From Stutzerimonas xanthomarina DSM 18231 (GTDB lineage Bacteria > Pseudomonadota > Gammaproteobacteria > Pseudomonadales > Pseudomonadaceae), in contig NZ_FQXA01000007.1 of assembly GCF_900129835.1 (NCBI RefSeq), positions 1 through 64,000 on the forward strand: a DNA stretch of 64,000 bases. Reading direction: 5' to 3'. Below are positions 13,685 to 17,120 of this stretch, in pieces. The position numbers and the translations under genes are program-made. How positions within the stretch are numbered: position 1 is the first letter of the stretch; every line of letters begins with the position of its first letter. The notes beneath the pieces are model-generated. The model made no database searches. It was given only the letters and a program-made list of their open reading frames with translations, and was not told where the DNA came from.

Positions 13685-16063
13685 TTAGCTGGGCTGCACC
13701 GCCGTGCGCGGCGGCAATTGCTCCAGGCGCAGCTCTGCCTGGGACAGATTGCGCACCGCTACCCACTCCGCCAACGCCGTGACCGAACGCGGCGGCGAGA
13801 TAAGGTAGCCCTGGAACAGGTCGCAGCCGGCCTGCAGTAGCGCGGATTGTTTCTCCAGGCTGTCGACACCCTCGGCATTCACCCGTTTGCCCTGGGCCTG
13901 ACAGAACGCGACGATCGCCGTGAGGCTTTGCTGCATCTCCGGGCGGGTCAGTCGCTCAATGATCGCCATGTCCAGCTTGATGGTATCGGCCGGGTATTCG
14001 AGCAATTGCTGGATCGAGGTGTAGCCGACCCCGAAATCGTCGATGGCGACGCGGAATCCAGCCATCCGAATCGCACTCACTGCCGCCATGGTGTTGCTGC
14101 TGAGTTCAGCGGCGAAGGTCTCGGTGAGCTCGATTTCGATGAGGCTGGTGCAGATACCGTAGTGCGCGGCGCGTTCGGTCAGGTAGCTGCACAGGCGGTC
14201 ATCGTCCAGCTGCGCTGACGACACATTGATCGCCAGGATAACGCCCTCGCCGAACAGGCTGACCAGTTGCGGGTAACCGGCCAACGCGTGGTCGATCACC
14301 CAGCTGTCGACCTTCGGGAACAGGCCTGCACGCTCGGCGATGGGAATGAATTCCCCTGGTGAGACCGTGCCCAGCAGTGGCGAGTGCCAGCGCAGCAATA
14401 CCTCGCAGCTGACCACCGCACCTTCACGGTCCACCGCTGGCATGTACACCAAACGAAATTGGTCGTCGCCGTTGAGGGTACGCAACTGTTCTTCGATCAG
14501 GCGGATGCGTTGGTCGCGTTGCTCGAGCTCCGCCGAAAACGCCACCGCGAAGTTCTTGCCCATGGCTTTGGCCTGATACATCGCGCTGTCGGCCCGCGTC
14601 AGCAACTGGGTGATCGACGCGGCATCGTCGGGATAACGGGCGGTGCCGATGCTGACGCTGATCTGGTAAAGACGATCATCCACGCGGAAGCCACCGCGGC
14701 ACAGGCCAAGCAAGGCGTCAGTGAGTTCGGCCAGGCTATCGCTTGCAGCCGGTGACATGAGCAGGACGGCGAACTCGTCACCGGACAGCCGCGCGAAGGC
14801 TGTTTCGGTATCCGGTCGCCATTCGCAATGGCGATTGAGCTCGCCTTGCGCGCGCAGGGCAAAGATCCGCAGCAATGCATCACCGGCATCATGGCCGTGC
14901 TGATCGTTGACTTGCTTGAAATTGTCCAGATCGAGAAACAGCAGAGCCAGCCGTTGCCCGCCTTGCTCGCACTTTTTATGCATCGCCGCAGCCAATATGC
15001 CGAAATGGGCGCGGTTGCTGATGTGGGTCAGGCTGTCGGTCCAGGAAATTTCCTGAATGCGCTGCAAGGCTTCCGTGTTGCGCTCGTGGAGCGTCTTCAT
15101 GTTCAACGTCAGGCGGCCGATCTCGCCGCCGTCGGTGGGCTCGTCCAGCGCCGTTCGCTTGCACAGCAGCAGGTCGGTGAGCTGCTGGCCCAGGTCGCTG
15201 ATGGGGTCGGTAACGTAGCGGCGGATCAGCAGCAGCAACAATCCGCTGGTGATCAGGCAGATCAGCGAGCCGCCGATGAGGAAGGCGAGGCTGAGTGTGC
15301 GCAAGCGATCGGCAAGGTAGTGCGGAGCAGGCGTCAGCCGAGCCTTCAACGATGTCGACAAGTCGACATCCGCCGACAGGCGCGACGTGGTTGTGCCCAG
15401 CGTCGGGGCGATATCTACCGCGGCATCATAGTCTGATTCGAGCTGGGCCTTCAGCTCGATGAACTGCTCCGGCCGCACGGCCAGTTGCAGGGTAAACGCC
15501 TCCTCGCGCTGACTGGGCAAGGGACGGGTGGCGGTGGTCGGCAGAATGAAATCAGTGTCCAGCAGCAGCGGTCCGCCTTCGGCGTTCTCTACGTAGACCA
15601 TTTCATCGGTATCGGCGGCCCGCTTGGCCTCTCTCACGATCCGCTGCTGGGTGGCATTCATCCGGGCGAACGGTGACAGGCTGCTTTCGAAGTAATAGGC
15701 GACTTCGTCGTCAGGCTCGACGATGGCAAAGGAGACGAACGACAGCCGAGCACTGGAGAGCGAGCGGATGCTCTGCTGGATGCGCAGGCCAAGGGTGTCG
15801 TTGCGGTAGGTGGTGTCCGATTCGCGGAGGAACGACCGCAACGCTTCGCTATCGGTGATCGAATAGAGCGCACTGCGATTGAACGCCTGGTAATCCAGAT
15901 AGGCCGATTTCAACGCCGACAGCCGTTGCGCCAGGCGTGCCTGCTCGAGACCCAACAGCGATGCGCGCTGGGTCATGTAGGCCGTCGTGGCGGCGAGCAG
16001 CTGGACGGCCAGGATGACCGGAAAGATCACCAGCAGTGCGCGCTTACCGAGCGTCATGGGCAT
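13685..16063 (-). CDS. membrane GGDEF-EAL protein, MbaA-like
   Basis: 792 residues. Transmembrane segment at about 9-28, large periplasmic sensor region (about 30-255), second transmembrane segment (about 256-282), HAMP linker, then GGDEF and EAL domains. The GGDEF signature is SGDEF (residues 427-431), usually active. The EAL signature is EVL (554-556) with the remaining catalytic features present: NVSS, ELTE, IDDFGVGY, KLD, AEGVD and FQGY. It can be expected to make and/or break c-di-GMP. The gene start overlaps the end of the upstream periplasmic polyamine-binding-type gene by 20 bases. The same order, size, SGDEF and EVL motifs are, as I recall, features of Vibrio cholerae MbaA, which works with the binding protein NspS. 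Confidence 0.9.
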   Translation of the reverse strand: MPMTLGKRALLVIFPVILAVQLLAATTAYMTQRASLLGLEQARLAQRLSALKSAYLDYQAFNRSALYSITDSEALRSFLRESDTTYRNDTLGLRIQQSIRSLSSARLSFVSFAIVEPDDEVAYYFESSLSPFARMNATQQRIVREAKRAADTDEMVYVENAEGGPLLLDTDFILPTTATRPLPSQREEAFTLQLAVRPEQFIELKAQLESDYDAAVDIAPTLGTTTSRLSADVDLSTSLKARLTPAPHYLADRLRTLSLAFLIGGSLICLITSGLLLLLIRRYVTDPISDLGQQLTDLLLCKRTALDEPTDGGEIGRLTLNMKTLHERNTEALQRIQEISWTDSLTHISNRAHFGILAAAMHKKCEQGGQRLALLFLDLDNFKQVNDQHGHDAGDALLRIFALRAQGELNRHCEWRPDTETAFARLSGDEFAVLLMSPAASDSLAELTDALLGLCRGGFRVDDRLYQISVSIGTARYPDDAASITQLLTRADSAMYQAKAMGKNFAVAFSAELEQRDQRIRLIEEQLRTLNGDDQFRLVYMPAVDREGAVVSCEVLLRWHSPLLGTVSPGEFIPIAERAGLFPKVDSWVIDHALAGYPQLVSLFGEGVILAINVSSAQLDDDRLCSYLTERAAHYGICTSLIEIELTETFAAELSSNTMAAVSAIRMAGFRVAIDDFGVGYTSIQQLLEYPADTIKLDMAIIERLTRPEMQQSLTAIVAFCQAQGKRVNAEGVDSLEKQSALLQAGCDLFQGYLISPPRSVTALAEWVAVRNLSQAELRLEQLPPRTAVQPS

Positions 16064-17120
16064 TTATCAGGGCGCTGATGATGCGTCGCCGTGTCTGCGT
16101 CGCTTCCAAGGGTCGCGCCTCGTAAACTTGGCTGTTCCGCAATACCACTTCGGCTGGATAGATGGTCGGGTCCTGGCGTATCTCCTCAGGCAACAACGCC
16201 TTGGCTGCGGCGTTGGTGGTGGCCACCCCCAGCTCAGCGCTGTTCAGCGCCGCAATCTGCGGGTTGTTGAGGAAGTTCAGGAAACGATAGGCCAACGCCT
16301 TCTGCGCGCCATTAGTCGGGACGGATAGACAATCCACCCAAAGCAGCGTGCCTTCCTTGGGCACCATGTAGCGCCAGGGTTCGCCGTCGACACCTTCGAC
16401 TTCATTGAGGACCTGCTGATCACCGCTGTAGGCAAGGGCCATGTCGGCCTTGTCGAGATAACGCTGGCTGCGTAATGACGTGATCACGTACTCGTAGGTC
16501 AACACGGCGGGGGCTTGCGCCTGCAGCAGCTCGAAGGCCGCCTTCAGCTCGTCATTATTCGAGGTGTTGATCGAATGCCCCTGATGCAATAGCGGGCCGG
16601 CGAGGATGTCTTCATGGTCCTCCATCATGATGATGTGCGGCTCGTCGCGATTGGCTGGCTGGAGAAGGTCCGCCCAAGACTGAGGCACGTTGGGCAGGCG
16701 GTCAGCCCGGTAGGCGATGCCGAGTGTGCCCCATAGGTAAGGGATGCTGTGCGCACCACAGCTGTCACGCCAACGCTTTGGAACATGCTTGAGATTGGGC
16801 AGCGCTTGCTCGTCAATCGGATCGAGCAGCCCGCGTTGGCCGAAGCGAGAGGAGCTGATTAGCTCGGTCAGGGCAATGTCGATCAGGTGGTCGGGTTTGG
16901 CCAGTACTTCGTCGCGTTTGTCACCGCTGTCGAAGTACACCTGCTCGATCTTCACGCCCGTTTCGGCTTCCCAGCGTTCGATTACTGCTTCGCTGAGATA
17001 TTCCTCCCAATTGAGCAGGTGAAGGGTCTGTGCTGCATGCAGCGCAGTGGATGGAAGCAGCAAGCAGGCCAGCGCCAGCAGGGCGGCCGGAGCTCGGAAA
17101 AACGGTTTCTGGTTATTCAT
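16044..17120 (-). CDS. periplasmic polyamine-binding-type protein, NspS-like
   Basis: About 358 residues with a signal peptide (to about residue 29, ending LHA-A). The mature protein begins TLHLLNWEEYLSEAVIERWEAETGVKI, the hallmark start of PotD/PotF-type spermidine/putrescine-binding proteins. Later blocks include YLWGTLGIAYRAD, DMALAYSGD and PKEGTLLWVDCLSVP. No ABC transporter permease or ATPase gene is nearby; instead the gene overlaps a membrane GGDEF-EAL gene, which argues for a sensory rather than an uptake role, as with V. cholerae NspS. I start at the ATG at 17120; the upstream frame to 17255 lacks a signal-peptide pattern. Ligand identity (spermidine, norspermidine or other) cannot be read. 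Confidence 0.88.
   Translation of the reverse strand: MNNQKPFFRAPAALLALACLLLPSTALHAAQTLHLLNWEEYLSEAVIERWEAETGVKIEQVYFDSGDKRDEVLAKPDHLIDIALTELISSSRFGQRGLLDPIDEQALPNLKHVPKRWRDSCGAHSIPYLWGTLGIAYRADRLPNVPQSWADLLQPANRDEPHIIMMEDHEDILAGPLLHQGHSINTSNNDELKAAFELLQAQAPAVLTYEYVITSLRSQRYLDKADMALAYSGDQQVLNEVEGVDGEPWRYMVPKEGTLLWVDCLSVPTNGAQKALAYRFLNFLNNPQIAALNSAELGVATTNAAAKALLPEEIRQDPTIYPAEVVLRNSQVYEARPLEATQTRRRIISALINAHDAR

Follow-up and report, generated by a model that had tools for sequence, protein, structure and literature searches.

The window analyzed here comprises the first 64,000 nucleotides of contig NZ_FQXA01000007.1 from Stutzerimonas xanthomarina DSM 18231. Two overlapping genes on its minus strand, which together span positions 13685-17120, are very probably the Stutzerimonas version of NspS-MbaA, a polyamine-sensing system that tunes biofilm formation through cyclic diguanosine monophosphate (c-di-GMP). 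The assignment is based on the orthology of both proteins, the pairing of the genes, the intact catalytic motifs of the receptor, and the orphan status of the binding protein. By analogy with Vibrio cholerae and Sinorhizobium meliloti, the ligand would be a polyamine, the binding protein would dock on the receptor, the receptor would function as a two-way enzyme, and the output would be biofilm formation.

The occurrence of NspS-MbaA in Stutzerimonas is already known as a genomic fact. An earlier note on this DNA had offered the presence of the system in a pseudomonad as a new inference, but most of 24 P. stutzeri strains cluster in the NspS-MbaA tree published in 2023 (PMC9993111). The locus in those strains is presumably the same one in sister strains, and it appears in the section of that paper considered here as a tree cluster only, with no analysis of residues, motifs, or function. 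No functional study of NspS-MbaA in Stutzerimonas was found in the literature listings searched.

Orthology to the NspS-MbaA Pairs of Vibrio and Sinorhizobium

The proposed orthology to NspS and MbaA was borne out by the trees described below and by reciprocal best hits with Vibrio species other than V. cholerae, namely V. coralliilyticus, V. sinensis, and V. hepatarius. The best matches to the window NspS in these three genomes were the mbaA-linked binding proteins (200, 181, and 221 bits, respectively), and the next-best binding protein scored no more than 134 bits. The best matches to the window MbaA were the genes adjoining nspS (418, 440, and 391 bits, respectively). These extend from query residue 3 to 764-766 and are the only ones among the matches listed that cover the sensor; the other Vibrio matches to MbaA, among those listed at E 1e-50, scored at most 229 bits and started at residue 262 or later. 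The reverse test for MbaA was conducted with one of the three species, V. coralliilyticus, whose protein returned the window gene from the S. xanthomarina genome at 416 bits over residues 1-759. The next match, at 256 bits, was restricted to GGDEF-EAL, and the other 32 of the 33 matches all started at residue 251 or later.

The reverse test for NspS was made against the window NspS and the SpuD- and SpuE-like proteins of the same genome, a fourth, partial match in that genome (C16) being left out of the comparison. Four Vibrio NspS proteins scored 186-217 bits to the window NspS and no more than 97 bits to SpuD/SpuE, whereas PotD and PotF of Escherichia coli preferred SpuD/SpuE. The V. coralliilyticus proteins are 33% identical to those of the window for NspS and MbaA alike. 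The periplasmic domain of the receptor, for which a lack of relationship to MbaA would have been telling, is 26% identical to the sensor of V. coralliilyticus MbaA over 336 columns (E 5e-33 in a single comparison), 36% identical to that of S. meliloti over 335 of 335 residues, and 40% identical to that of Shinella, also over 335 of 335 residues.

The S. meliloti pair (smc00991-smc00992; PMC9993111) resembles the window pair in gene order, in the presence of an overlap, in SGDEF, and in having no inhibition site (I-site). Its binding protein is 42-44% identical to that of the window and, like the sensor, aligns over the full length. It differs in having EAL rather than EVL, an overlap of 4 bases with a GTG start rather than one of 14 bases, and the D90 and F131 contacts where the window has E and L. 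In S. meliloti Ak57 (CP090106) the two genes are annotated as a substrate-binding protein and an EAL-domain protein, and they adjoin purD. The Vibrio pairs have the same architecture as the window pair with near-identical positions of SGDEF and ExL, but their overlap is 17 bases as counted here (16 in print).

The Overlapping Gene Pair

The coordinates of the two genes and of the features within them are collected in Table 1. The receptor open reading frame as called, 13685-16063(-), encodes the 792 residues that had been reported previously. The receptor homologues, however, begin at MTLGKR, which corresponds to Met3 of the Stutzerimonas protein, and the start was therefore placed at 16057. 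The genes do overlap, as claimed, but by 14 rather than 20 bases, and the receptor has 790 residues. The 13-bp overlap of nspS and mbaA given for Pseudomonas (PMC9993111) is evidently the same overlap counted otherwise. A scan for promoters and terminators found fewer sites than the shuffle means.

Table 1. Features of the nspS-mbaA locus in the window
Feature	Positions	Strand	Basis
nspS-like gene; periplasmic polyamine-type solute-binding protein, 358 aa from ATG at 17120	16044..17120	-	Pfam/NCBIfam/PDB matches, reciprocal hits, tree
mbaA-like gene; receptor of the inner membrane, GGDEF and EAL domains, 790 aa counted from Met3	13685..16057	-	Pfam, homologue starts, reciprocal hits
Overlap of the nspS-like and mbaA-like genes, 14 bases	16044..16057	-	homologue starts
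Approximate periplasmic sensor domain, ~residues 25-254; Cache/LuxQ-like in predicted model	15296..15985	-	predicted model, structure comparison
Cyclase signature SGDEF, residues 425-429 in Met3 numbering; not preceded by an RxxD inhibition site	14771..14785	-	motif reading
Phosphodiesterase signature EVL, residues 552-554 in Met3 numbering; more motifs of active EAL domains downstream	14396..14404	-	motif reading

The binding-protein gene was found directly upstream of the sensor gene in all 26 of the other Pseudomonadaceae genomes whose loci were read (16 of the same genus and 10 of a second genus), and the pairing of the two genes exceeds chance. An exception outside the Pseudomonadaceae is Vibrio campbellii, in which an MbaA-like receptor (L043:5860-8334; SGDEF, EVL; sensor 23% identical) has no same-strand open frame of at least 200 residues upstream in the stretch examined, and no binding-protein gene was found adjoining it. 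The mbaA frame is interrupted in the records of Sinorhizobium fredii USDA 205 (L068), Rhizobium sp. RCAM05350 (L079), and Aureimonas leprariae (L084).

Catalytic Motifs of the Receptor

The receptor matches the GGDEF and EAL families of Pfam, and the two signatures had been placed correctly at residues 427-431 (SGDEF) and 554-556 (EVL) in the numbering of the 792-residue frame. No RxxD inhibition site was found in the receptor, which has DTET at the expected place. EVL is followed by INVS, ELTE, DDFGVGY, IKLD, AEGV, and FQGY, which we take to be the active-site motifs of an EAL domain. Since SGDEF, EVL, and these later motifs are all present, both active sites appear to be intact by motif, and activity at each is plausible. 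MbaA from S. meliloti and V. cholerae likewise has SGDEF without RxxD and keeps the Mg-binding residues (PMC9993111). In one other member of the genus (L022), SGDEF is replaced by YGDEF.

The earlier note had also listed HAMP among the features of the receptor. Pfam HAMP was unmatched even at E 1 in the window receptor and in S. meliloti MbaA; a putative HAMP region is placed in the window receptor by alignment with V. coralliilyticus MbaA, which is itself weakly matched (21.6 bits, cut-off 25).

The earlier note had argued that the combination of SGDEF and EVL, shared with V. cholerae, makes common descent likely. V. cholerae MbaA does carry EVL (PMC8079147), but the argument fails on the MbaA tree, which was calculated by a quick method from 52 open-frame rows (L071, L074, L075, L077, L078, and L111 were left out, and long-branch warnings were issued for L097 and L080). 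Of these proteins, 26 have A in the middle of the EAL motif, 22 have V, and 4 have T; at least six changes among EVL, EAL, and ETL are required on the tree, and for the A label starred branches force five. EAL is found in the three nearest relatives in the tree (L120, L008, and L007), including Stutzerimonas stutzeri 4C29 (L120), whose receptor is 93% identical to that of the window, and in the six Vibrio orthologues. SGDEF is common to 43 of the 52 proteins. With one motif so labile and the other so widespread, the shared pair was rejected as a mark of common descent. The EVL of the window and of V. cholerae is best read as convergence, because the nearest relatives and the Vibrio orthologues in the tree have EAL, and the motif is unsuitable as a marker of MbaA.

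We consider it unlikely that the receptor acts in the cell solely as a polyamine-gated phosphodiesterase, with a regulatory rather than a catalytic SGDEF. The purified cytoplasmic domain of V. cholerae MbaA was a phosphodiesterase only in vitro (PMC8079147), and the AGDQF sequence of a sister group described below indicates that some members of the family may have lost the cyclase chemistry. However, SGDEF is intact in the window receptor, as in most MbaA proteins, and the in vivo data for V. cholerae suggest synthesis in the presence of norspermidine (PMC8079147).

Periplasmic Sensor Domain

Residues 1-335 of the receptor were modeled with AlphaFold2 from a 32-row alignment (mean predicted local distance difference test score 83.9; predicted template modeling score 0.69). 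A Foldseek search with the sensor model returned three integrative models first and then the sensor of sporulation kinase D (E 6e-4), and only these four matches pass E 0.001. Using VIA-align, the model was matched to the histidine-kinase sensor 8w7p (Z 12.3, root-mean-square deviation (rmsd) 4.1, 195 residues), the polyamine chemoreceptor McpU 6f9g (Z 10.8, rmsd 4.8, 193 residues), and LuxQ 3c38 (Z 10.5, rmsd 5.6 Å, 180 aligned residues). No Cache match was obtained with Pfam in the window receptor. Because many Cache-type domains tie, the model supports a Cache-like fold for the sensor and does not indicate the ligand.

LuxP-LuxQ provides a functional comparison only, in that a periplasmic binding protein signals through a Cache-like receptor; this precedent fits a binding protein that docks on such a receptor here. 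It differs in that LuxP belongs to another binding-protein family and the output of LuxQ is a histidine kinase.

Binding Protein and Proposed Function

The N-terminus of the binding protein is signal-peptide-like when read by eye. The protein matches SBP_bac_8, SBP_bac_6, and SBP_bac_1 of Pfam, and its best NCBIfam models are PotD and PotF, both of which fall far under their cut-offs. At E ≤0.001 it matches 26 distinct PDB sequences, mostly of the PotD or PotF type, the single best being Listeria Lmo0810, for which no ligand is named. A motif scan detected no ATP-binding cassette (ABC) transporter ATPase motif in the whole window. The description of an orphan PotD/PotF-type binding protein thus agrees with these results.

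Eight contacts to the polyamine have been predicted (W41, D70, D90, F131, Y233, D236, W261, and D263 in V. cholerae numbering; PMC9993111), and their positions were mapped through S. meliloti. All eight are present in the four Vibrio rows printed, and six (W41, D70, Y233, D236, W261, and D263) are identical in the window protein. At the D90 position, the Vibrio rows and S. meliloti have D, and N is found in Shinella and Pseudomonas sp. 102515. All MbaA-linked proteins printed have D at the D70 position apart from L094 (E), and they have D, N, or E at the D90 position; the transport proteins printed have E/S at these two positions, whereas the window protein has D/E.

In the proposed mechanism, periplasmic NspS would bind a polyamine and, depending on the ligand, dock on MbaA at its Cache-like periplasmic domain. 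This contact would shift MbaA, via the membrane and the putative HAMP region, between the synthesis of c-di-GMP (SGDEF) and its breakdown (EVL), and this shift would tune biofilm formation versus free swimming. In the model for V. cholerae, NspS carrying norspermidine associates with MbaA and favors synthesis; when NspS is free of ligand or binds spermidine, MbaA is left to degrade c-di-GMP (PMC8079147, PMC8967002).

Several points weigh against this assignment. The direct comparison with Vibrio covers species other than V. cholerae. Two of the predicted contacts differ in the window protein, with D90 replaced by E and F131 by L, and therefore the ligand may differ. Biofilm and exopolysaccharide of S. 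meliloti 1021 showed an nspS-dependent drop with putrescine or spermine, and in strain Rm8530 norspermidine raised biofilm in the wild type and the nspS mutant alike (PMC9993111); the use of ligands is therefore not constant in the NspS-MbaA family. Neither the sign of the response nor the identity of the ligand is transferable from the known systems to Stutzerimonas.

It is quite unlikely that the pair is orthologous to NspS-MbaA but with a binding protein that takes another cationic amine instead of a classical polyamine. The drift of the pocket between lineages at the D90 and F131 positions would be explained in this way, but the six other contacts are kept and the PDB relatives of the binding protein are mostly of the polyamine type, even though the single best is Lmo0810.

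Two transport-type paralogues (SpuD/SpuE-like) are encoded elsewhere in the genome. They are clustered with an ABC ATPase, identified by its motif, and with two permeases, an aminotransferase, and glutamine-synthetase-like genes, as judged from the open reading frames with no family search; we take this cluster to be the Spu arrangement. A binding-protein tree of 70 rows was calculated with a quick IQ-TREE run (long-branch warnings for L097, L118, and L119). It includes 54 of the 80 loci of NspS relatives described below. A further 22 loci had been removed by hand to thin out near-copies as well as transport-type rows from Firmicutes and Nitrospira, among them L068 and L079 with their broken mbaA frames; L071, L074, L075, and L114 are also absent, and L084, with a broken frame, was retained and labeled MbaA. 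All 32 MbaA-linked binding proteins fall on one side of a branch with a Shimodaira-Hasegawa-like approximate likelihood ratio test (SH-aLRT) value of 100. Adding the 17 rows that are linked to other receptors gives a group of 49 rows (SH-aLRT 100), as against 21 transport or other rows. The window protein stands apart from transport PotD/PotF, with which it might have grouped, and from the SpuD/SpuE of its own genome.

That the binding protein is a transport PotF beside a coincidental receptor, as its fold family and NCBIfam labels might imply, is hardly credible and was rejected: it is largely contradicted by the separate MbaA-linked clade, by a gene pairing kept from Rhizobiaceae to Vibrio, by the Spu-type cluster with its own ABC ATPase, and by the lack of an ABC ATPase motif in the window.

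Soil, sediment, and water are the habitats of Stutzerimonas species, some of which are nitrogen fixers on roots; S. stutzeri A1501 has reportedly been studied for nitrogen-fixing biofilm and rhizosphere colonization. A polyamine input to c-di-GMP through NspS-MbaA would tie the polyamines of neighbors or plants to attachment, and the Stutzerimonas pair would allow the setting of a two-way enzyme by a single binding protein to be tested outside Vibrio.

Distribution and Genomic Neighborhood

The sensor was found in 39 of 56 genomes of the genus, the S. xanthomarina genome included, and in 21 of 148 genomes of the family, representing 2 of 19 genera. In draws taken evenly from the class, which held few close relatives, the sensor was detected at E 1e-5 in 1 of 369 genomes, that of S. 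xanthomarina. A wider profile at E 0.001 matched 91 of 350 class genomes, but the match was full-length only in the same genome; the other matches listed start no earlier than profile position 192 and so cover the last part of the sensor and the transmembrane/HAMP region. An even spread of the sensor through the class was thus not seen. When the class was searched at E 1e-60 with a longer query, only the S. xanthomarina genome was returned, and a scan of viral contigs gave no match.

The named relatives closest to the window locus are from Stutzerimonas. The neighboring genes encode a histidine kinase, a sigma-54-type response regulator, an ABM-domain protein, a pfkB kinase, and a GH65 enzyme, none of which is a transporter or polyamine gene. 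These neighbors are kept in two loci (L150 and L120). Their conservation is partial or lacking in the other Stutzerimonas loci compared, and they are absent from the examined stretches of the other Pseudomonadaceae group (L151 and L091) and of V. coralliilyticus (L112).

A Possible Wider Family of Receptor-Linked Binding Proteins

Named genomes were scanned with an eight-row NspS alignment, and the best 80 of 584 relatives were considered. A GGDEF-EAL gene lies just downstream in 44 of these 80 loci by an automatic test. Of the remaining 36 loci, 13 were read: seven have a GGDEF-EAL partner (the three interrupted frames noted above, three AGDQF proteins, L093-L095, and L109), five have a hybrid histidine kinase, and one (L100) is cut off within a Cache-HAMP protein. 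The last 23 loci were scanned for the ABC ATPase motif only, which is present in 18 and absent in 5, two of the latter being on contigs of ~5 kb. By comparison, the motif occurs in 1 of the 57 receptor-linked loci (L117).

The hybrid histidine kinases directly downstream of NspS-like genes (L103, L113, L115, L118, and L119) are from Desulfopila (L103), Desulfobacterales, a gammaproteobacterium, SAR324, and Algicola. At E 0.001, dCache_1 was found in four of these five receptors, over the Pfam cut-off in two, and in 8 of 11 non-MbaA GGDEF-EAL receptors (not in L107, L110, or L116), over the cut-off in three; the non-MbaA labels were assigned before the family scan of most members. No binding protein-histidine kinase pairing of this kind was found in the titles of a literature search on the wider family.

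We propose tentatively, as a reading that falls somewhat short of probable, that NspS-MbaA is one branch of a larger sensory family of polyamine-type binding proteins that would have a single origin and exchanged output modules: GGDEF-EAL receptors of the MbaA type, other GGDEF-EAL receptors with a mostly dCache-like sensor, and hybrid histidine kinases. The transport-like E/S residues at the D70/D90 positions of several non-MbaA receptor-linked proteins (L116, L118, L119, and L121) count against this proposal, and because of them the D70/D90 signature does not mark the wider group. If the proposal is true, the bacteria in which extracellular polyamines act on c-di-GMP and phosphorelay pathways would far outnumber the known cases.

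In the MbaA relatives from gammaproteobacterial metagenome-assembled genomes (L093, L094, and L095), AGDQF replaces SGDEF and EVL is present, which suggests a phosphodiesterase-only version. In an uncultured Halomonas (L109:5001-9887), the NspS-like gene is separated from the GGDEF-EAL receptor by a second binding-protein-like gene.

Candidate Polyamine Synthesis Genes

At another position in the S. xanthomarina genome (L153:5542-8029), an nspC-like decarboxylase gene (398 bits, curated cut-off 409) adjoins a saccharopine-dehydrogenase-like gene. This is presumably the arrangement expected for the synthesis of carboxyspermidine or carboxynorspermidine. A carboxy(nor)spermidine route is therefore possible in this organism, and with these two genes a self-made polyamine may be one input.

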